Below are positions 1,503 through 14,576 of a DNA stretch of 64,000 nt, piece by piece; position 1 is the first letter of the stretch, and each line of letters starts with the position of its first letter. The stretch spans positions 1-64,000 of the forward strand of contig MSDW01000001.1 of NCBI GenBank assembly GCA_001914405.1, read 5' to 3'. The notes beneath the pieces were generated by a model. The model did not search any database. It was given only the letters and a program-made list of their open reading frames with translations, and was not told the DNA's origin. The DNA comes from Candidatus Methanohalarchaeum thermophilum (lineage in GTDB: Archaea > Halobacteriota > Methanonatronarchaeia > Methanonatronarchaeales > Methanonatronarchaeaceae). The position numbers and the translations under genes were made by a program.

Positions 1503-2924
1503 TTAGAATTTGAGTCCTAGTTCTTCTAATTCGTTTTTGGTTGATTGGTAGATCTCGAAGTATTTGTCTGTTGGTGTTAGGTCGTCCATGTTGTAGCATT
1601 CTTGCATTTTCTTTCCGTTTCCTAGTTCTGTGTTGTCTGGGTCTTTTGTTTGGTCTGCTTCCATGTAGTTATCTTCGTAGGAGCTGACTAGTTCATCTAT
1701 TATTTGGTTTGCTTCTGATACGTCTAGTCCTGCTACTGCTTCTGCAGCTTCGCTCATCATTTTAGACTCCATTGAGGTTGTGTAGTCTTTGAGTACTCCT
1801 TTTGCTGATGCTGATCCTGACATTATTTCTCTTCCGCTTACTGTATCTGTCATTGCTTGGGCTGCAACTTCTTTTAGGCACATATTGGTGCATGGACCGG
1901 ACAGTGGATAATATTGGTTACCTATTAGGATGTTTGGTTTTATTTTGTTGAATGCTGCTGCTACGTGGCCTGCCATTGCTAGGCATTCTCTTGCGGTTGT
2001 TATTCCCCATCTTACATGGATTGGTCCGTCTAGGTGCCAGTCACAGTGGTACATTGTGTAGCTGATTAGGTGGGATGCCATGTCTATTATGGTGCTTTCT
2101 TCTAGGCCTCCTGCGTATCCGCCGAATATTGGCATTTGTTCTATCATTATTGTGTCGTTGTTTTCTACCCAGCCTGCGACCATGTTTAGTCCTGCGTTAT
2201 CTACTTTTAGTTCGTTTAATTGTGAACATTCGTGGCTATCTGAGGGATTTAATCCGTTTAGTTGGTCTGCTGCTATTCTTCCTGCCTCAGTAAGAGGTGT
2301 TTCTGGGCCCTATATGCCCATGTTTGGTCTGCCTGCTCTAGCACAGGCTTCACGTACAGATCTCAACTCAAAAAGGGTGCCTTTAATTTCCATTGCAGTG
2401 CCGGCGGGTGTATCGTGTCCGTTGTAGCTTGATGGTACTCCGTCTACGATTAGGTCGACGCTTGGTTCTTGTGCGTATGTTTGATGCATTTCCACGAATA
2501 TGTCCTCTGAAACTGGTGCTCCGGTTGGTCCTCCTTGTGTTAGTGGTGGTTTTTTGTCGTTTCCTGCTCTGGGTGTTACTTCTACGGAGTCTTTTCCTTT
2601 TCCTAGTGTTAGGTCGGTTGTGGCTTTTTCTAGTCCTGCCATTATTTGTTCTTCTGTGACTTCTATTACTGTTTCAGTATCAATGTTGTATATTCCTAGG
2701 TCGGATAAGAGGTCTACTCCTGCGTTAAATATATCTTCTTTTAGTTGCTCGTCTTCTGGCACTATTTTGCTTTGATCCATTTCGATGTCGTATTTTTCTA
2801 CATATTTTTGAGCTTTTTCTCTAATTAATTCGTTATCCCATTTAGTTTCTGAAACTTCTTTTCCGTCTCTAAATTTTCTATCTGCTTCCCATACACCTAA
2901 TCCATTTCCTTTAAATGAAGCCAT
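1503..2924 (-). CDS. mtmB: Monomethylamine methyltransferase MtmB, pyrrolysine-containing (UAG read through)
   Basis: This is the first enzyme of monomethylamine methanogenesis: it demethylates CH3NH3+ and methylates the corrinoid of MtmC. An in-frame TAG at 2310-2312 (codon 205 from the chosen start) follows RPNMGI and precedes GPETPLTEAG, exactly the pyrrolysine site of the family (residue 202 in Methanosarcina). Reading through gives a full-length protein of 473 residues. The downstream part keeps SQLNELKVDNAG and the C-terminal barrel. The frame is open back to a TTG at 2939, but the ATG at 2924 has GGTGGA seven bases upstream and lies about 35 nt from a TATA box, so I prefer it. No other stop interrupts the gene. 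Confidence 0.95.
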
Positions 2925-3249
2925 CTGTTTTTCCACCAACGAAGCTAATAAATGGTTTTTTTATATAAAACCAGCTACTAGTAAGTTTGGTTACCTAATC
3001 TAATATCATATGTTACTCCAAAAAACCAAAAACAAAAAAACTAGATCCCAACTCAAAAAAAATACTTAATCCAAAAAACAAAAAATAAAAAATCCAATAA
3101 AATGTATCTTATAGAACACATTAGGTCCTAAAGAAATAAATATAAATTATATAGATACAAAAAGTCTCTATATAAGTTCTAGTGCTCTAATTTTTGTTTT
3201 TTGTGTTAGGTTGAAAAATTATAAGAAATCGAGAAAGTAATTTTATCTA
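2925..3249. other. Divergent intergenic region between mtmB and pylD
   Basis: This 325-nt A/T-rich gap holds the mtmB promoter on the minus strand and the pylD promoter on the plus strand. A TATA-like CTATATAAG sits at about 3170-3178, roughly 72 nt before the pylD ATG. The middle (3010-3110) is an A-rich low-complexity stretch. No RNA gene or clear operator palindrome was seen. Because mtmBC and pylDC are divergent, a regulator binding here could control both methyltransferase and pyrrolysine supply; that is inference. Confidence 0.4.
2955..2970 (-). promoter_or_regulatory. TATA box of the mtmBC operon
   Basis: On the minus strand an A/T-only stretch reading TTTTATATAAA lies about 33-45 nt upstream of the mtmB ATG. 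It is placed for transcription to start near the TTG/GTG codons at 2939-2936, leaving a short leader that holds the GGTGGA ribosome site. No BRE could be confirmed by eye. Confidence 0.45.
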
Positions 3250-4137
3250 ATGACGAGGCTGGATGAAGAAACGGTAAAAAAAGTAAGTCAGAAATTAAAG
3301 AAAATAGATAGCCAAATTAGGGATTTTTCTGGTTCTAGTTTCAATGAAATCTGTAGAGGATCTGATTATTTCGATAATCAAGTGGATCCAAGCAAAAAAA
3401 AGACTGCTGCCGTTCCAGTGACCGAAGAACTAGGTGAGATAAGTGGCTTCTCCGAGACAGTTTCAGAAATACTTAACTACCTAGGATTTAACTCAGCCCA
3501 TGTAGACGAGAGTGATGTACTAGGTTTTTCCAAAGCTATTAAAAAGAAACCAGATCTAGTTTTCATGGCAGATAACGATCAATTTATTTCCTACAATACT
3601 AAAACCAACTCATTCGTTGGAAACGATACTGCAACTGCTAGAGGATATTCAATATTAACTAAAGAAACAATTAAAAAAAATAATCTATCAAACATCCTAT
3701 TAATCGGTTTAGGCAATGTAGGACTTAGCATCCTTAAGTTTTTGACCCAAACCGAGACCTCAATTTTACAAGAAACCGAAGAAATATTTGTTCACGATAA
3801 AAAAGAAAAAAAGATCAAAAAAGCCAAAACCATAGAAAAAAACATAAAACCACTTAAAAAATCCAAACCAAGTGAAATAGACCTAATTATAGATGTCACA
3901 CCTGTAAAAAACCCTATCAACCTCAAAGAAAAAAAGAATCACAACTTATTTACGATACAACCAGGCGTCCCCCCAGGTTTCAGCCCTAACTCTAATCCCA
4001 GCAACAATTCTAATTCTAATTCTAATTCTAGTTCTAGTTTTGGTGGAGAGGTGGAGTTGAAGTCTTTTCATGATCCTTTAGCTATTGGTGTTGGATCAAT
4101 GGCCTTTATGGCTTTAAATAATTGGAGAAAGAGATAA
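3250..4137 (+). CDS. pylD: Pyrrolysine biosynthesis protein PylD
   Basis: PylD catalyses the last step of pyrrolysine synthesis, the NAD-dependent oxidation of 3-methylornithyl-lysine that ends in ring closure. The 295-residue product has the family features: an N-terminal helical domain, FMADNDQFISYN, the NDTATARGY segment, and a Rossmann motif GLGNVG near residue 157. Before the conserved C-terminal FHDPLAIGV there is an extra Asn/Ser-only stretch (about residues 247-262), encoded by a TCTAAT/TCTAGT hexamer repeat. Methanosarcina PylD is shorter. The stop overlaps a possible earlier pylC start, so pylD and pylC form one unit. No clear Shine-Dalgarno site is seen before the ATG. Confidence 0.92.
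   Translation: MTRLDEETVKKVSQKLKKIDSQIRDFSGSSFNEICRGSDYFDNQVDPSKKKTAAVPVTEELGEISGFSETVSEILNYLGFNSAHVDESDVLGFSKAIKKKPDLVFMADNDQFISYNTKTNSFVGNDTATARGYSILTKETIKKNNLSNILLIGLGNVGLSILKFLTQTETSILQETEEIFVHDKKEKKIKKAKTIEKNIKPLKKSKPSEIDLIIDVTPVKNPINLKEKKNHNLFTIQPGVPPGFSPNSNPSNNSNSNSNSSSSFGGEVELKSFHDPLAIGVGSMAFMALNNWRKR
3998..4040 (+). repeat. Hexanucleotide microsatellite inside pylD
   Basis: About six tandem copies of a TCTAAT-type unit, drifting to TCTAGT, are translated as an Asn/Ser run. The repeat is in frame and does not disrupt PylD, but it marks a sharp change in base composition: the coding strand is A/C-rich before it and G/T-rich after it. Confidence 0.8.
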
Positions 4138-4139
4138 AG

Positions 4140-5228
4140 ATGAATTTGGTTGTGGTTGGAGGTGGTCTTCAGGGACTTGAATTGTGTTATTTAGCTAATA
4201 AAGCTAATATTGAAACTACTTTGATTGATAAAAAGGAGGATCCTATTGCAAAGGGGCTTGCAGACAATTTTATTAGTATGGATGTTACTGATTCTGTTGA
4301 TAGATTAAGAAAAAAATTTGAGAAACATAGTTATTTGGTGCCTGCAACTGAGAGTTTAGATGCCTTAAGATGTTTAGATAATGAATTTGATGGTAAGGAT
4401 ATATTGTTTGATTTTAAGAGTTTTTTTCTTACTTCTGATAAGAAGAGAATGTATCAGATGCTTTCAGAGAACACTAAGGTGCCTCCAAGGGCTACGGTCG
4501 ATAGTGATTTTCCAGTGATAGTTAAGCCTGTTCGGGGTAGTGGTAGTAAGGGAATAAGAAAGATTTCTAGTGAATCCGAATTTAAGAAGTTTAAATCAGG
4601 GAAAAAAGATTTTAGTAATAATTATTTGGCTCAGAAATACTTAAAGGGAAGACAATACTCTACTGAAGCTGTAGTTAAAAATGGTAGACTATATAGTTAT
4701 CAAACCACTTTATTAGAGTTTCAAAGTGATTATGGTTGTTGTAGGATTGTCTGCAACCCAAATATACCAAAAGAGATTATAAATAAACAAAAAAAAGCTA
4801 TAAAAGACATATATAAGTCATTTAGTGAAATAAATTATTTATTTGATGTTCAAACACTTTTCGATGGAAAGGAACTGTATTTAATTGAGATAAACGCCAG
4901 ATTCCCTAGCCAGACCCCTATCTCCGTTTATTGGTCCACCGGAATCAACTTACTAAACCAACTAATCAAACCTCAAGAACATATGATAGATGGAGCTCCC
5001 GTTATATTAGAGCATTTCAAATTAAATAACAACAATATAGAGATAATCAGTGAAGCAAAACTCCTTGAAGGATCTGATTACAGAATTAAAAAGAAGTTGC
5101 CTGGATGTAAAGAAGCTATAATAGGAAAAACAGATAATAACAAAAAAATTGGTACCGCTATCTTCAAAGAAAAAAATCTAATAGAAATAGAAAAACAAAG
5201 AAAAAAATTCTACAAAACAATCAAATAA
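4140..5228 (+). CDS. pylC: 3-methylornithine-L-lysine ligase PylC (ATP-grasp)
   Basis: PylC joins 3-methyl-D-ornithine to the epsilon-amine of lysine using ATP. The 362-residue product starts with a Rossmann-like VVVGGGLQG segment, carries an ATP-grasp core (VIVKPVRGSGSKGIRKI near residue 125) and ends the ATP-binding region with LIEINARFPSQTP near residue 250. I chose the ATG at 4140, two bases after the pylD stop; a TTG at 4122 would overlap pylD and adds residues not seen in the family. Composition changes within the gene, from G/T-rich (4140-4720) to A/C-rich (from about 4880). pylB and pylS are about 7.4 kb away, not in this operon. Confidence 0.92.
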   Translation: MNLVVVGGGLQGLELCYLANKANIETTLIDKKEDPIAKGLADNFISMDVTDSVDRLRKKFEKHSYLVPATESLDALRCLDNEFDGKDILFDFKSFFLTSDKKRMYQMLSENTKVPPRATVDSDFPVIVKPVRGSGSKGIRKISSESEFKKFKSGKKDFSNNYLAQKYLKGRQYSTEAVVKNGRLYSYQTTLLEFQSDYGCCRIVCNPNIPKEIINKQKKAIKDIYKSFSEINYLFDVQTLFDGKELYLIEINARFPSQTPISVYWSTGINLLNQLIKPQEHMIDGAPVILEHFKLNNNNIEIISEAKLLEGSDYRIKKKLPGCKEAIIGKTDNNKKIGTAIFKEKNLIEIEKQRKKFYKTIK

Positions 5229-5601: not shown

Positions 5602-5940
5602 TTATTTTTCCTCCTTTGTTGGTTTTTCTTTTCCATCTAATGCTCCAACATCTTTTGCTCTTTGTTCTCCGGTTTCCGTTAAACAGTATTTGTGTAGTAT
5701 GGCTTCTTTTTGGAATTTACCTTCTTTATCTATTTCATATTCGACTTGTTCTAGTAGGCCATGGTTGGCCATTTCAATTAGATTGGAGTAAAGCATTCTT
5801 TCTGAGATCTAGAGGCAACCAAAAACCTTGCCGTAATTATTGTAGTCTCTTTTTACTTCTTCTATTATTTCATGGCACCAAAGTTCTCCTTCTCCTCTAA
5901 AGCATTCGAGTATTTTAAATTTTGTTGGTCTTTTACTCAT
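5602..5940 (-). CDS. Winged-helix regulator with one in-frame UAG (candidate pyrrolysine protein)
   Basis: Reading through a single TAG at 5809-5811 (codon 44) gives one 112-residue winged-helix protein ending in TAA. The part before TAG (MSKRPTKFKILECF..., GELWCHEIIEEV) is helix 1-2 of a PadR/ArsR-like fold. The part after it (ISERMLYSNLIEMANHGLL, then YCLTETGEQRA) is the recognition helix, wing and last helix. Both halves are needed for a fold, and the frame is unbroken otherwise. The likely Pyl would sit at the start of the DNA-recognition helix. It lies 84 nt after the methylamine permease and abuts the small membrane protein. Alternative: a nonsense-mutated gene. Confidence 0.72.
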
Positions 5941-6024
5941 TTTTTTAACCTATTATAGGTTTTAAAATAATTTTTGGTTTTTATTTAGGCCTTAATTTGT
6001 TTTTTGTATTTTTATTGTTTTTAT

Positions 6025-7074
6025 TTAGCTTTCTCTTACTCTTTCTTCGACTTCTTCTTCTGTAAACATTACCCAGGCTCCTATTATGCATATTATTGAT
6101 CCTAAGATTACTGTTCATTTTGGAACTTGTCCTCCGAAAAGAAATAGGAATATTACTGCAAGTACTCCGTATAGGTTTGCCACACCTTGTCCTCTTCCTA
6201 CTCCTACGAGTGGGAATGATTTGTACCAGTTTACGTAACAGAATCCGAATGTTATGCCTGCCATTACTAGTGTTAATAGTACTATTGGTTCGAATGCTTG
6301 TAATGCGTATTCAAACATTGGGAGTCCTAGGACTGCTAGTAGTGGGATTATTATTATCCACCAGATGAGGGTTTCGCCTAAGAATCGTGTTAAGATTCCT
6401 GCGTCTGGTTCGGAGACTTCTAGTGCTCGTCCTGCTACTGCTCCTTCTGTTCCCCAGCCGGCTGCTGCCATTGCGCCTCCTAGGTATCCTAGCCAAGCTA
6501 CTTTTCCTCCGGTTGCTGTGAGGTTGGAGATTAATCCGAATATGTAGACTACTACTCCACTGAGCATTATTAGGGGGACACCGGTAACTGCTCTTTTAGA
6601 TATTTTTTCACCGTACCAGACTTTAGAGATAACTATTCCAAAAACTGGGTATAGTAATGCTGCTACTGCTGCAAATGCTCCTCCTATGAAACCCATTGCC
6701 ATGAATGATCCTAGAATCGCTATTGGGCCTCCAAGGAATCCGGCCAGCAGATACCATTTGGAGGAACTTTTAAATTCTGTTACTGTTCTTTTTATTTCAC
6801 CTAGTTTGCCTAGACCACCGTTCCATATTATTAAGGCTAAACTTACGGTTATAGCGTTTAATCCTGTTATTAATACTGCTGTTATCACCATTCCTACGCT
6901 GCTGCCTACCATTTCTGCCATTTCTGTTTGCATTTCGAAGAAGGGGTTTAATAGCCAGACTACTTCTCCTGGTACATACCATAGGCCCCAGAGTATAGCT
7001 GTCATTAATGCGAACATGTATCCATATCTTCGCTTATTTTCGCGTTGTTTTGCCAAAAGTTGGGTTTTTTCCAT
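6025..7074 (-). CDS. Methylamine permease (MtmP/MttP-like) with an in-frame UGA
   Basis: This is a membrane transporter of about ten helices similar to the methylamine permeases found in methanogen methylamine operons (DMT-like repeats, WGLWYVPGEVVW near residue 30). A TGA at 6115-6117 (codon 320) interrupts it, but the same frame continues with TVILGSIICIIGAWVMF and a charged tail to a TAA at 6025. This gives 349 residues, the length I expect for the family. The continuation is clearly a last membrane helix, so the gene is either read through, mutated, or affected by a base error (TGG to TGA is one change). GGAGGT precedes the ATG. It leads a unit with the UAG-containing regulator and the small membrane protein. 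The transported amine cannot be told from sequence. Confidence 0.85.
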
Positions 7075-7402: not shown

Positions 7403-7729
7403 TTGAGTAAAAAGTCCACATCCTTTTCGATTTCAAAAAATCTAATAAAAGAACTAGACGAAAAAGCCTCGGATTCAGAAAAAAGCAAATCAGAGGTAGT
7501 GGAAAGATCCCTAAAAGAGTTTATAGAAGGAAGTGAAGAAGTTAAAGAACTTAGATATAAACTAAAAGAAAAAAAGAAACAAAACAAATTGCTTGAGGAT
7601 AGAATAAACGACCTAGAAGCAAGAATAAACGACCTAGAAAAGATAATCAAAAACAAAGAAAAGCAAATAAAGCTACTAAAAAATTACATCAACGAGGAAA
7701 ATGAAGAACTAGAAATATTAATTGATTAA
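7403..7729 (+). CDS. Ribbon-helix-helix protein with C-terminal coiled coil
   Basis: The 108-residue product has an N-terminal ribbon-helix-helix (Arc/MetJ-CopG type) DNA-binding motif at about residues 4-47 (STSFSISKNLIKELDEKA, then SKSEVVERSLKEFI). A continuous charged coiled coil follows at about 50-105. A 21-nt direct repeat doubles the heptad RINDLEA, so the coil has grown by duplication. Start codon is TTG, and the product is soluble. It is probably a transcription repressor that dimerises through the coil. The neighbours (permease unit on one side, PAS protein on the other) do not reveal its target. Confidence 0.75.
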   Translation: MSKKSTSFSISKNLIKELDEKASDSEKSKSEVVERSLKEFIEGSEEVKELRYKLKEKKKQNKLLEDRINDLEARINDLEKIIKNKEKQIKLLKNYINEENEELEILID

Positions 7730-7743
7730 AGATTAAATTGAGC

Positions 7744-8307
7744 TTAATTTATTTTTATTGTCCCATTTAAGTCCTTTGCGTATTTTTTTAATTTCTTTAT
7801 CCACTCTTCATCCTCTTCATTATGGATATTGTTTTCTCGTTCAATTTTTTCAACTAACTTTAAGGCATCATCTGGATCTAGTTTAACCTCTTTCATGTAC
7901 CTTAAAATTACTTCATTGTTTTCCACATCTTTTGAAATAAACATGTTTCCCTTAAATGGCGTATTATTATCTCTTACATCTTCTTCACTTTCAATATCAA
8001 GTATAATTCCCTCCAATAGTTCTGGTCCATCTTCTCTATAAACTGCGTGTCCTTCTTCCCATACTTTCTTAATTTTGTTATTTGCTGTTTTTATCCTATA
8101 AACCACATTAAAAGGTCTTTTTTGTTTTATAGATTTTTTAATCTTGTTTTTTACCTTTGATCTGTCACTAGGATGTATTATATCTCGATATGAGATCTTA
8201 TTATTGTTTAGCAGAGCCGAAGGATCGTACCCAGTTACGTCTTGAAAGTGGCCGCATATGTATTTCATAGTCCATTTTTCGTCATATTTACATTCATAAA
8301 GTGGCAA
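7744..8307 (-). CDS. PAS-domain sensor protein
   Basis: The 187-residue product begins with a PAS domain (about 1-110): the KYICGHFQDVTGYDPSALL and ISYRDIIHPSDRSKV segments and the IKKVWEEGHAVYRED strand are typical of PAS_3-type folds. The C-terminal part (about 125-187) is charged and helical, with no kinase, HTH or cyclase domain, so it may act as a stand-alone sensor or partner. It faces the RHH gene tail to tail with 14 nt between the stops. The ligand is unknown. It lies just upstream of, and divergent from, mtbCB. Confidence 0.8.
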   Translation of the reverse strand: MPLYECKYDEKWTMKYICGHFQDVTGYDPSALLNNNKISYRDIIHPSDRSKVKNKIKKSIKQKRPFNVVYRIKTANNKIKKVWEEGHAVYREDGPELLEGIILDIESEEDVRDNNTPFKGNMFISKDVENNEVILRYMKEVKLDPDDALKLVEKIERENNIHNEEDEEWIKKLKKYAKDLNGTIKIN

Positions 8308-9248: not shown

Positions 9249-10658
9249 ATGACAGAAAAATATACAACACGAAAAGGAGACGGCAGAAAAATAGAACTAA
9301 CCAAATCAGAGATAAGAGAAGACATAGAGGAAGGATCAGCCGATGCAGCAAACAAAGGAGGAATAAACGAACTAAAAGAAGACGAAAAAGATAAAATAGT
9401 TTCACTCATCACCGACCCAAGTAAAGTAGTCTCAGTCGAAAAAGGAAACGAAGTACCATTCACCCACGACATAGGCACCCTACGATTAATGGGTGACCAA
9501 GGAAACAGCGGAGTAGGAATACCAATGTCAAGAGAACAAGGAGTAAAAACACACGAAAGAGCATTCGCAGTAGACACAATGGAATTAGGCCACATAGACT
9601 ACAGTTTCAAACCCGCAAAACCAATTATAGCACAAGAACAACAAACCCTAGAAGACATACTACTATCAACAATAGTACCAATATGGTATGGCGCAATGCC
9701 AAACCTAGGACTATATTACGCACCAGACGGCCAATTCAAAAACCCAAACGAATTAATGCCAGAAGGAAAAATCAAAGAAGCTAAAGAAGCACAAGAAAAA
9801 GCAATAGAACAAGCCAAAGAAGATATGAGCTACATAGCCGAAAACTTAAGAAAAGTAGGACTAGACGGGCTAAACATAGACACAACAGCAGCAGCAGGAG
9901 ACCCAGACTTCAAAGCAGTACTCGAAGTAACAGAAGAACTAAAATCAAACCCAGAAACCGAAGACCTAGCAATAGAAATCGGAATGGCAGCAGAACACGT
10001 ACTAGGAATGCACGGCGACCTAGAATACAACGGAAAACAACTAGCGGGAATATTCCCACACGAACAAGTAGAAATAGTCGAAGAAGCAGGCGGAGACCTA
10101 TTCGGGCCAGTATGCAACACCAAAACAGGAAAATCACTTCCATGGAACCTAGCAAGAGCAGTTACATTCGTAAAGGAAACCAGCAAAGTATCAGACATAC
10201 CTATACATGTAAACATGGGAATGGGCGTATGCGGAGTCCCAATGTTCGAGACACCTCCTGTAGACGCAGTAACCAGAGCATCTTCCGCAATGGTCGAAGT
10301 AGGAAATGTAGACGGCATATAGGTAGGAGTTGGTGACCCAGTGGGAATGAACATAGCCCACTACGCAGCCTCAGGCCTAGGAGGAATCAGAACAGCCGGA
10401 GACCTAGTCGCCAGATGCCAAATGAGAGAAAACATGAAAATAGACGAAGCAAAAAACTACGTAGCCAAAAAACTCGATGTAGACACACAAGACCTCTCAA
10501 ACGTAAATGTAATGAGAGACCTCAGAGAAGAACTAGACATAGGAGTCATAACCTCACTACCCGGAGCAGCAAAAGGAGTAGAAGCAAAATCAAAAATAGC
10601 AGATGTCCTCGACATAGAAATACCATCCGTAAACAGACTCAAAAACAAAATAGAATAA
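9249..10658 (+). CDS. mtbB: Dimethylamine methyltransferase MtbB, pyrrolysine-containing (UAG read through)
   Basis: This enzyme transfers one methyl group of dimethylamine to MtbC. A single in-frame TAG at 10320-10322 is codon 358; the flanks are GNVDGI before and [13 protein letters not shown] after, matching the pyrrolysine site of MtbB (356 in Methanosarcina). With read-through the protein is 469 residues and ends in TAA. Conserved stretches include [39 protein letters not shown] and FGPVCNT. A GAGGGAT ribosome site within the end of mtbC precedes the ATG. A second ATG at 10346, after the TAG, is not a separate gene start. Confidence 0.96.
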
Positions 10659-11024: not shown

Positions 11025-12515
11025 TTATATTTGTACTTTTACTTCTTCGTTTTTGTCTGCTTTTTTGACGATATCTTCCATGTCTGATAGGAGGTCACTG
11101 TCTATTTTCTTGACTTCGTGTTCTGATAGTACTTTGTTTACAAAGTCGTGTGCTCTTTCTGTCATGTTTTGGCTACCTTTGCTTTCCCAGTCTCCTCTCA
11201 TGTTTCTATCTATTAACTCATGTTCTGAATGCATGTCCATGTTGCTTATTGTGCTGTCGTGTTCTAGGAAGTTACCGTATTTTACATCTCTGACTGAATC
11301 TAGTGATATTGTTTCGTCTGATACTGGTATTCCGCCTCCGGCTACTTTTTCTACCATTTTTATTACTGCGTCGTCGATTGCTAGTTGTTCTAGTGCGCAT
11401 GTGTTACCTAGTTCTAGCATTCCTGCTCCGTATAGTGTGTTTGCTCCTCCTAGTTGTGGCAGTAATGTTGTGATTGTTTTTTCGTGAGCCGCCTGAGCAT
11501 CAGGCAGCTTAGAATCAGCCTATATGCCGGCTACAAAGGTTGGTAGGTCGTAGTATTGTCCGAGTTTTGCGACTGAGGCGCTTATCATTCCTAGTTCAGG
11601 AGCTCCTACTGGTGCTGTTCCTTTTTTGACATCGAACATTGTTGTTGAGCTTCCGTACCAGACTGGTGCTCCAGGTTTGAAGATCTGTGAAAGAACTATT
11701 CCTGCTAGTACTTCTGCGTTGTGTGTTACTAATGTGCTTGCTAGGTTCATGTTTCCTGATGCTCCTGCCATTGCCATGCTTAGTACATTTACTGGGATTC
11801 CTAGTTTTGCTCCTTTTTCGATTACTTTAAGACCGTTTTCTCCTAGTTGTAGTGGACTTGTTGGGCATAGTAGCATAGAGAATATTGGTCTTTCTCTTGC
11901 CATTTCTTCGTCTCCACCGTAGTATGCTTTAACCATTTCCCAGTAGTATTCTACATTTTCAGCTACTGGATCTATGTGGTGGAAGTGTTTTGATGTGTTT
12001 TTTATTGATGTTAGAAATTCATGTACATCTATTTCTGCGTCTGATGGTAGGTCTCTTGCGGCTACGGTTAGAGAGTAGTAGTCTATGCTGTCTAGGTAGT
12101 CAGCTAGTTTTGCTTGGTCTTCTATGTCTTTTTGTTTTGAGTCTCTTATATTGAAGTTACCGTTGTCGTCTATTTCTAGGGTTGATACTCCAGTTCCAAA
12201 GGTGGTGCAGTTTACATCTGGACCAGCTTCTTGCATTACATCTTTGTCTTCGTCTCTTGCTGGTAAGTTAAAGCTGCTAGGAGCTTTACTTAGGGCGTCA
12301 TTAACCAAGTGTTCTGGTATTTTTACAATTTTGCCATCTACTTCGCATCCTGCTTCTCTGAATACATTTCTTGCTCTTTCTGTTTCCACTCTGATCCCTG
12401 GATCTCTTAGTACTTTCATGGTTGAGCGATGGATTTTATCTAATTCATCGTCTGTGAATAATTCTAGCTTTGATCCTTTTTGACTGTTTATTCCAGCCCA
12501 TGTTCTATCTTTCAA
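11025..12515 (-). CDS. mttB: Trimethylamine methyltransferase MttB, pyrrolysine-containing (UAG read through)
   Basis: This enzyme moves a methyl group from trimethylamine to MttC. An in-frame TAG at 11520-11522 is codon 332; the flanks are LPTFVAGI before and [15 protein letters not shown] after, matching the pyrrolysine site of MttB (334 in Methanosarcina). With read-through the product is 496 residues. Family segments include [11 protein letters not shown] near the N-terminus, [20 protein letters not shown] and [10 protein letters not shown]. The start is TTG, with AGGTGAT upstream. Unlike mtmBC and mtbCB, its corrinoid protein is not adjacent: mttC lies about 2.2 kb away on the other strand, beyond pylTSB. 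Confidence 0.96.
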
Positions 12516-12629: not shown

Positions 12630-13676
12630 TTAAAATCCATTGATGTAGTCAACAAGTTCTTGAGTTCTTGCAGCCCTAAACCCATTTTCTTCCAAATAAC
12701 TCTTAACCTGAGAAGGAGACCTCTCACCATCCTCTATACCATACTCATGGTTTGCAACTCCCGACAAACTAAAATCAGGAGGTATAATAGAAGTAACCAC
12801 ATTAGCTCCTGCTCGAATTTTTTCTGATATCCCATCCAAGCCTCTAATATCCAAAGAAGCAGGAACCAATTTCCTCGGATTAGTTAATCTCAACAAAGCA
12901 ATAATTAATTTTGGATCCCTCTTCTTAACTTCCGGAAGAGGAACTCCATCATGTCTCACATACTCCATACACCTAACTTGAGCCACATCTTCCTGCGACA
13001 TCTGATATATGGTTCTGGCCAGTGAATCTGTATCTTCACCCAAATTGTATAGTAATCCATCCTCCGCCAACAATCCAGCTTCTCTCGCTTCTTTTCTCAC
13101 TCTTTTTCTAGCTTTAAATGATTGATTAGGTCGTAACTCTTTATATAAGTTTAAGTCATGGGTTTCTTGATAGATAGCGTACCAATCAGCGCCTTTTTCG
13201 TGTATTTTCTGTATTTGATCCTTATTTTTAACTCCTGGACTAACCATTATTGGTCTATTTAATGTTGAAAGTTCTTCGATTATATTTAGTAGTTCTCCAA
13301 AGTTTTTTTCATAGTATGGATCCTGTCCAGATGTTATATCTATTAAATTGACTCCTTCTTCGATTAGAGACTTTGAGATCTCGAATATCTCTTTCTTGTC
13401 CTTACGATATCTATTAGGTAGTTCATTAGTTTTTCTGTAGTAACAGAAGTTACAGTTATTTCTACATACAGTAGAGAAGTAGACAAACCCGTAAAGAAAG
13501 ACTTTATTTGAAAAAAACTTTTCCCTTACCTTAGATGCTGTTTCTAAGATCTTTTTCTTTTCCTCGTCTTCTTGGATGCTTAAAAGCCTTTTAATGTCTT
13601 CTTTATCAAAAGATTGGTTCTGCACATTTTTCAATGCTTCTTCAAAATCTCTATTCAAGTATTTAGTTGATTTCAA
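12630..13676 (-). CDS. pylB: Methylornithine synthase PylB (radical SAM)
   Basis: PylB converts lysine to (3R)-3-methyl-D-ornithine, the first step of pyrrolysine synthesis. The 348-residue product has the radical-SAM cluster motif CRNNCNFC (CxxxCxxC, about residues 71-78) followed by YYRKTN, then a TIM-barrel with GVNLIDITSGQDP, the IYQETHD segment and a C-terminal region ending in AARTQELVDYINGF. Its ATG overlaps the last 14 nt of pylS, indicating translational coupling. It belongs to the pylT-pylS-pylB unit. Confidence 0.93.
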   Translation of the reverse strand: MKSTKYLNRDFEEALKNVQNQSFDKEDIKRLLSIQEDEEKKKILETASKVREKFFSNKVFLYGFVYFSTVCRNNCNFCYYRKTNELPNRYRKDKKEIFEISKSLIEEGVNLIDITSGQDPYYEKNFGELLNIIEELSTLNRPIMVSPGVKNKDQIQKIHEKGADWYAIYQETHDLNLYKELRPNQSFKARKRVRKEAREAGLLAEDGLLYNLGEDTDSLARTIYQMSQEDVAQVRCMEYVRHDGVPLPEVKKRDPKLIIALLRLTNPRKLVPASLDIRGLDGISEKIRAGANVVTSIIPPDFSLSGVANHEYGIEDGERSPSQVKSYLEENGFRAARTQELVDYINGF

Positions 13677-14484
13677 GTCTTATACCATCCTGGTAGCTAA
13701 GGGATCTAGCGTAGGATTTTATTGAATTTCCCTCGTTTTTTGTTTGTATTAGTCTTTCTACCCCGATCCCTATTCCTATCCAGGGTTTATTTATAGAGAA
13801 ATTCGCATCAAGGGGATGTGGTCCTATTACGCTTGAGGCTATTTCTAGGCCATTAACCTCTATATCCAGAGTTTTTCCATATACAGTAGATTTTTCTTCT
13901 TCTATTTTGTAATCTACTAAGTTTCCAATTATTTCATCGATCATTTCTCTGGTTCTTTTCTCTTTATCTTTTATTTCACCCACTTCTACTGCGTTGAGCA
14001 TCTTAAATTCTCGAACATGGTTTTTTCCTTGTTCCTTCCTGAAACATGTCCCTAATTCAAATAATTTAACGACATCTTTTTTACTTATTCTAAGAAAGTG
14101 TTTCATCTGCCTATATAAGTTAGGAGCTAGCATTGGTCTTAAACACTTATTTCCTTCATCTAACTTATATATTTGATTGTATATGTTGCTTTCTTCTGAT
14201 ATATTCATTTTATTTTTTAGTACGGACATAGAGATTATGTGAGGAGTTTGAACCTCGGTGAAATCGCTTTCATATAGATTTTTTCTTAGTTTCTGTTCGG
14301 TTTTTTTCCAATCGGGTTCGTTTATTCGTTGGAGTTTCTTAAATTTGTTTCTATTCTTTTTCTGTAGTTCAGTCTCTTTTCTTTCGAAGAATTCGTCTCT
14401 TTCTTCTTGATCTTCAAAAGTGGGTGCTTCTCCTTGGTAACCTAGTTCCCTTAGCCTCTGTGATTGTGATCTCGTTAATTCCAT
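13663..14484 (-). CDS. pylS: Pyrrolysyl-tRNA synthetase PylS without PylSn domain (short motif 2 loop)
   Basis: This class II synthetase charges tRNA-Pyl. The 273-residue protein is only the catalytic domain, so it is the PylSn-lacking class. The pocket residues I can align with the Methanosarcina enzyme are L123, Y124, N164, V166 (Cys in M. mazei), Y202 and W235. Motif 2 reads CFRKEQGKNHVREF, at least one residue shorter than the M. mazei loop CYRKESDGKEHLEEF. Motif 3 is GIGIGVERLIQ. The frame continues upstream through the tRNA gene, but the ATG at 14484 right after the tRNA fits the family start. A short loop together with A73 in the adjacent tRNA suggests the orthogonal second PylRS type. 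Confidence 0.93.
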   Translation of the reverse strand: MELTRSQSQRLRELGYQGEAPTFEDQEERDEFFERKETELQKKNRNKFKKLQRINEPDWKKTEQKLRKNLYESDFTEVQTPHIISMSVLKNKMNISEESNIYNQIYKLDEGNKCLRPMLAPNLYRQMKHFLRISKKDVVKLFELGTCFRKEQGKNHVREFKMLNAVEVGEIKDKEKRTREMIDEIIGNLVDYKIEEEKSTVYGKTLDIEVNGLEIASSVIGPHPLDANFSINKPWIGIGIGVERLIQTKNEGNSIKSYARSLSYQDGIRLEIN

Positions 14485-14490
14485 AGTCAG

Positions 14491-14576
14491 TGGGGAGCCC
14501 GGGAGTTGAACCCGGCAACCGAGGGTTTCTCCTTTTAGGGTAACTAGAGCCCCCTTGGCCACCCGACCAGCCCCCC
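14491..14576 (-). tRNA. pylT: tRNA-Pyl (anticodon CUA), A73, with a predicted 17-nt intron
   Basis: The acceptor stem GGGGGGC pairs with GCTCCCC (seven pairs, one G-U), followed by discriminator A at 14491. U8 is a single base and the D stem GGTC/GGCC has a four-base loop, both tRNA-Pyl traits. The T arm is CCGGG-TTCAACT-CCCGG. Removing 14527-14543 gives anticodon stem GGGGG/CCCTC, loop CTCTAGA with CUA at 14547-14545, and a 69-nt mature tRNA, the Methanosarcina length. Without the intron the anticodon stem has a mismatch and the variable region is 21 nt. It ends six bases before the pylS ATG on the same strand, so pylT-pylS-pylB are likely co-transcribed. CCA is not encoded. Confidence 0.88.
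14527..14543 (-). other. Predicted archaeal-type intron in tRNA-Pyl (between positions 37 and 38)
   Basis: The fold expected by the archaeal splicing endonuclease can be drawn. The exon bases CUCU pair with GGAG near the intron 3' end (four pairs, one U-G). They are flanked by the three-base bulges AGU and AAA on opposite strands and supported by the GGGGG/CCCUC anticodon stem. Cutting two bases into each bulge removes 17 nt and places the junction at the canonical 37/38 site. The outer intron helix is missing or very short (a ten-base loop), so this is a relaxed bulge-helix-bulge. Confidence 0.7.

Follow-up and report, generated by a model that had tools for sequence, protein, structure and literature searches.

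Candidatus Methanohalarchaeum thermophilum (HMET1) is a pyrrolysine (Pyl)-decoding archaeon, and one gene of its methylamine cluster, which encodes a winged-helix protein, is split by a single UAG ahead of the predicted recognition helix. A first-pass annotation of the window (the whole stretch of 64,000 nucleotides analysed here) had read this UAG as a possible sensor of Pyl supply. The locus therefore raises the question of whether the UAG is such a device, an incidental codon that the host is able to read, or a sign that the gene is being lost.

A winged-helix gene and its permease operon

The regulator gene (5602-5940, minus strand) runs from an ATG at 5940 to a TAA ending at 5602 and comprises 112 codons if the UAG is read through. 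Exactly one in-frame stop was found, the TAG of codon 44 (5809-5811, minus strand). Coding scores were positive before and after the TAG (11.0 and 27.1), with the other two frames reaching at most 7.0 and 5.6. A search with the single sequence recovered homologues with E values of 3e-16 to 9.5e-13, and since the homology spans both flanks of the TAG, the frame is no chance frame. Against the family profile, which includes the regulator's own copy, that copy gave an E value of 4e-42. No close relative of the gene was present in the collections searched, viral contigs yielded neither relatives of the regulator nor its exact DNA, and a PDB sequence search with the protein returned chance matches only.

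AlphaFold2 predicted a winged helix (mean pLDDT 85) with a helix at residues 22-40, a turn at 41-46 that contains residue 44, a recognition helix at 47-59 and a wing of two strands at 63-71 and 80-87. Frame, homology and predicted fold together bore out the annotated single TAG in an otherwise open winged-helix gene of 112 codons. They also agree with the statement that both halves are required for the fold, the recognition helix and the wing being encoded after the TAG; termination at UAG44 leaves a 43-residue fragment devoid of both. The proposed placement of Pyl at the start of the DNA-contacting helix was right in that residue 44 lies just ahead of the recognition helix, but it is predicted to sit in the turn and not inside the helix. 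The nearest solved folds found by Foldseek were PadR-type and haloarchaeal RosR regulators (TM about 0.5-0.6), and by its predicted fold the protein would work like a regulator of the PadR/HxlR/RosR type. Its Pfam scores stayed below the curated cut-offs (HxlR, 15.8-16.6 bits vs. 20.8; PadR, 13.1-13.6 bits vs. 27) and, therefore, it is filed in neither family. The recognition segment reads ISERML...GLL, which resembles an HxlR motif. Among six family members tested, the regulator alone touched Pfam HxlR, with an E value of about 0.01 that falls short of the curated cut-off.

On the minus strand, the regulator is preceded by a gene for a methylamine permease (MttP-like, EamA/DMT family), which extends from 7074 to 6115 or, past an in-frame TGA at codon 320 (6115-6117), to a TAA at 6025-6027. 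It is followed by a gene for a small membrane protein (5601 to 5437, 54 amino acids, a single helix), whose start codon comes immediately after the stop codon of the regulator and which corresponds, by position and motif, to sORF_05 of M. mazei. The same arrangement was seen at all 76 of the 76 homologous loci fetched: the permease gene lies directly upstream of the winged-helix gene and that for the small membrane protein downstream, all on one strand. The assignment of the regulator to a methylamine permease unit was thereby upheld. The TMA-permease operon of M. mazei consists of MM_1691, MM_1692 and sORF_05, and its small protein is membrane-associated (PMC11456600). The window contains the same three-gene set, and Methanosarcina homologues align to the regulator; unlike the regulator, those recovered have neither an internal stop nor its loop insertion. 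In M. mazei, the regulator probably corresponds to MM_1692, a 'hypothetical protein'. We regard the regulator as a true orthologue of the winged-helix protein that methylotrophic methanogens encode between the methylamine permease and the small membrane protein. A RhaT permease linked to arCOG04962 has been described close to PylRS2 in HMET1 and in the majority of Thermoplasmatales with pylS (PMC9071458). The window holds the only permease copy of this genome, and one of the two partners of the permease is presumably arCOG04962.

At the position of the permease TGA, 61 of 62 homologues have Trp, and termination there would cost the protein its last membrane helix. The permease is about 60% identical to other permeases, and the 29 codons after the TGA are still conserved. 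Since 8 of 12 strongly conserved columns are kept there, the TGA is either recent or read through. A genome-wide reading of UGA as Trp was rejected as an explanation, TGA ending 22% of genes. The small-membrane-protein gene is intact, as is its ribosome-binding site. Both the permease and the regulator gene are absent from the two nearest relatives (same family, same class).

Further observations were made on this gene set. A second, decayed version of the operon is present on contig 4 of a Methanosarcinaceae genome (G099); there the permease Trp codon that is TGA in HMET1 has become a TAG, and the winged-helix gene carries a TAG and a frameshift. A MAG labelled Desulfobacula contains a permease/winged-helix pair similar to Methanosarcinaceae pairs, which points either to uptake by a bacterium or to wrong binning of the contig. 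In the window, the space from the permease to the dimethylamine genes encodes a ribbon-helix-helix protein with a coiled coil (7403-7729) and a PAS-domain protein (7744-8307), which are possible regulators of the cluster.

Directly upstream of the start codon of the regulator lies an imperfect inverted repeat (5941-5967). Its core AACCTATTATAGGTT (5947-5961) is a perfect dyad of 15 bp, 6 bases upstream of the start codon, and the mRNA hairpin of this dyad is more stable than most shuffled sequences (z -2.4). The repeat is a possible operator or mRNA hairpin. A function as shared operator was rejected: the genome contains one exact copy, and the dyad is absent upstream of the other methylamine genes of the window, where, as upstream of the permease, chance matches only were found.

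UAG as codon and as stop in the genome

The regulator is surrounded by mtmB (1503-2939, minus strand), pylD and pylC (3250-5228, plus strand), corrinoid protein genes, mtbB (9249-10658, plus strand), mttB (11025-12515, minus strand) and pylB, pylS and tRNA-Pyl (12630-14576, minus strand). The methylamine methyltransferase genes mtmB, mtbB and mttB, each with an in-frame TAG, served as Pyl control genes; they and the pyl genes beside the permease operon are intact. With a tRNA-Pyl (anticodon CTA), PylS, PylB, PylC and PylD and these three TAG-containing genes, the premise that this genome decodes UAG as Pyl was confirmed. Two PylRS genes, 53% identical, were found in the genome, as described before for HMET1, which together with M. 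luminyensis was the sole organism known to encode two; when placed in Haloferax volcanii, each of the two PylRS/tRNA-Pyl pairs of HMET1 decoded UAG (PMC9071458).

Stop codon usage was surveyed in 1.264 Mb (59% of the assembly) with 996 called genes, of which 12.9% end with TAG, 22% with TGA and 65% with TAA. TAG makes up 29.5% of the stop triplets in all frames and is thus under-used, yet far from abandoned as a stop. In archaea that are thought to decode UAG constitutively, UAG ends 1.6-5% of genes (PMC4153887). The share in HMET1 is above this range and, therefore, an arbitrary UAG need not be read through. Backup stops were no closer after TAG-ending genes than after TAA- or TGA-ending ones, so there is no sign of adaptation to a general read-through of UAG. 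In sum, UAG in HMET1 is ambiguous.

The regulator is not the only gene with a stray TAG. A transporter of the APC-UspA type (C1:1388364-1390523) has an in-frame TAG at a codon that is TGG in a genome of the same family, to which it is 75% identical before and 57% after the TAG. An SNase-like nuclease (C1:722480-723061) has one at a variable site, where a paralogue in the same genome (C1:394932) has TAT; each of these TAGs is one mutation away from the respective sense codon. Among non-transposon genes in 59% of the assembly, in-frame interruptions by TAG were found in 3 genes (the regulator included), by TGA in 3-5 and by TAA in none, although TAA has a share of about 49% in mutational opportunity; in relics of TnpB-type elements the interruptions were mostly TAA. 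The chance of finding no TAA among 6 interruptions is about 0.018. The counts are small and the candidates were judged by eye, and the lack of TAA is hence a hint, not proof. At C1:970985 and C1:1213794, two more long genes, for a beta-helix-like and a methyltransferase-like protein, each contain one in-frame TGA. For one TGA-interrupted gene other than that of the permease, relatives yielded no homologue.

The TAG site among homologues and the readings of the UAG

When more than 60 distinct homologues were aligned, none of the intact ones had a TAG at the site of codon 44. The TAG falls in or beside an insertion of 5-6 residues between helix 2 and the recognition helix, which occurs in the regulator only. 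None of the six columns in the recognition helix that are at least 90% conserved was kept, and with the insertion the family segment RDSxNFD was not found in the regulator. Conservation of the UAG position among orthologues, as in mtmB, mtbB and mttB, was thus not observed, but the frame downstream of the TAG is homologous and conserved. Strongly conserved family columns were kept at 9 of 13 positions before the TAG and at 13 of 24 after it; the second half is therefore not randomised. The regulator was 35% identical to its homologues, where a median of 54% (5th percentile 49%) was expected from the permease, as calculated from pairs of homologous loci with similar permease identity. The genome scan for homologues returned Methanosarcinaceae-type loci.

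The first-pass annotation had looked for support in relatives that carry a TAG or a sense codon at position 44 between conserved flanks. Such support did not emerge: no TAG was seen in intact homologues, the insertion is confined to this lineage and the conserved helix residues all differ. It had also named, as evidence against a function, ordinary sense codons in all homologues together with further stops in this copy. Homologues indeed have sense codons or a gap at the site, but the regulator has no further stop, though the adjacent permease has its TGA.

We lean, by a small measure, towards the UAG being an incidental amber which is tolerated because the host can read UAG as Pyl. The mutation to UAG would have arisen in the non-conserved, lineage-specific loop. 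Charged tRNA-Pyl would let some ribosomes pass codon 44 and give a full-length regulator with Pyl44 in an exposed turn; without active Pyl machinery, or where ribosomes stop, the 43-residue fragment would be made. We infer that codon 44 is actually read through and that this read-through is not under selection. There is no indication that Pyl44 or a dependence on Pyl was selected and, from the sequence comparisons, constraint on the operon appears weakened. The features of a neutral amber of the Thg1 kind are found at this locus: the homologues have sense codons, further sporadic ambers occur in the genome, and the host decodes UAG.

Relaxed selection is a serious rival because of the permease TGA, the excess divergence of the regulator and the absence of both genes in the closest relatives. 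The permease operon would be in early decay, the permease having lost its last membrane helix by a change from TGG to TGA and the regulator having acquired a nonsense TAG; neither product would be needed and read-through of the UAG would be irrelevant. We consider this a possible explanation that stays clearly short of probable. An early stage of decay fits a TGA at a nearly invariant Trp with the frame behind it still recognisable, and a regulator that has diverged beyond expectation and lost all six helix residues. The duplicate operon in the Methanosarcinaceae genome, in which the TAG at the same Trp is accompanied by further breaks, is an example of such a course. The nonsense codon of the permease agrees with decay just as well as with the favoured reading. 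On the other hand, the regulator is free of further stops and frameshifts, strongly conserved residues persist after both the TAG and the TGA, the permease has retained its identity to other permeases, and the small membrane protein with its ribosome-binding site as well as the neighbouring methyltransferase and pyl genes are intact. Furthermore, the HxlR-like version of the recognition segment would speak against a simple decay of that segment.

A sequence or assembly error in this genome, which was obtained from an enrichment culture, is very improbable. It would account for two nonsense codons within one operon of 1.6 kb in a single assembly, but the TAG and the TGA are both substitutions that keep the frame, comparable single TAGs in intact frames occur elsewhere in the assembly, and TAA, which random errors would yield most often, was unseen in the same role.

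Very improbable is a sensor in which full-length regulator is made only with Pyl-tRNA, so that expression of the permease or the methyltransferases tracks the Pyl supply: the methylamine operon in a Pyl-decoding genome, the modelled placement of residue 44 in the turn that leads into the recognition helix, and the candidate operator directly upstream would suit it, but no RNA structure beyond that of shuffled sequences follows the UAG (z = +0.45), and the dyad occurs upstream of the permease or the other methylamine genes of the window by chance matches only. The annotated coupling of expression to Pyl supply is also left without support by a TAG that is unconserved and lies in a unique loop, and by stray TAGs in genes with no regulatory link. 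Dependence on Pyl alone does not make a sensor because it is automatic for any UAG-bearing gene in HMET1. We likewise give little credence to the idea that translation of the regulator gauges the Pyl supply and thereby sets the expression of the permease operon, perhaps via the dyad, as a recent development from a stray amber that is confined to this lineage.

Precedents and wider meaning

As an incidental amber, the UAG of the regulator is a known kind of event. The closest precedents are Thg1 of Methanosarcina acetivorans and the putative Pyl genes of Ca. M. alvus. In Thg1, the tRNA-His guanylyltransferase, whose amber arose by neutral evolution, UAG is reported to be translated as Pyl, and Pyl is not essential for activity (PMC2933860). 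Like the regulator, Thg1 has one in-frame UAG outside methylamine catalysis that is restricted to a single species, the homologues having sense codons; unlike Thg1, the regulator belongs to a methylamine operon. In Ca. M. alvus, 16 putative Pyl genes other than methyltransferase genes were described (PMC4153887). That a regulator may contain Pyl is no new idea, since a TetR-family regulator of M. acetivorans annotated with an in-frame UAG is listed in PMC3639795, where it was used as a positive cluster. Both cases are in-frame ambers in a transcription-regulator gene of a Pyl archaeon, but the families differ, and the TetR gene is not described in PMC3639795 as a member of a methylamine operon.

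The genes for the regulator, the APC-UspA transporter and the SNase-like nuclease carry stray ambers in a Pyl archaeon where UAG remains the stop codon of about 12% of genes. HMET1 therefore lends itself to asking how ambiguous UAG is when it serves both for termination and for Pyl insertion. A regulator that truly depended on Pyl would provide a direct link from the expansion of the genetic code to gene regulation.
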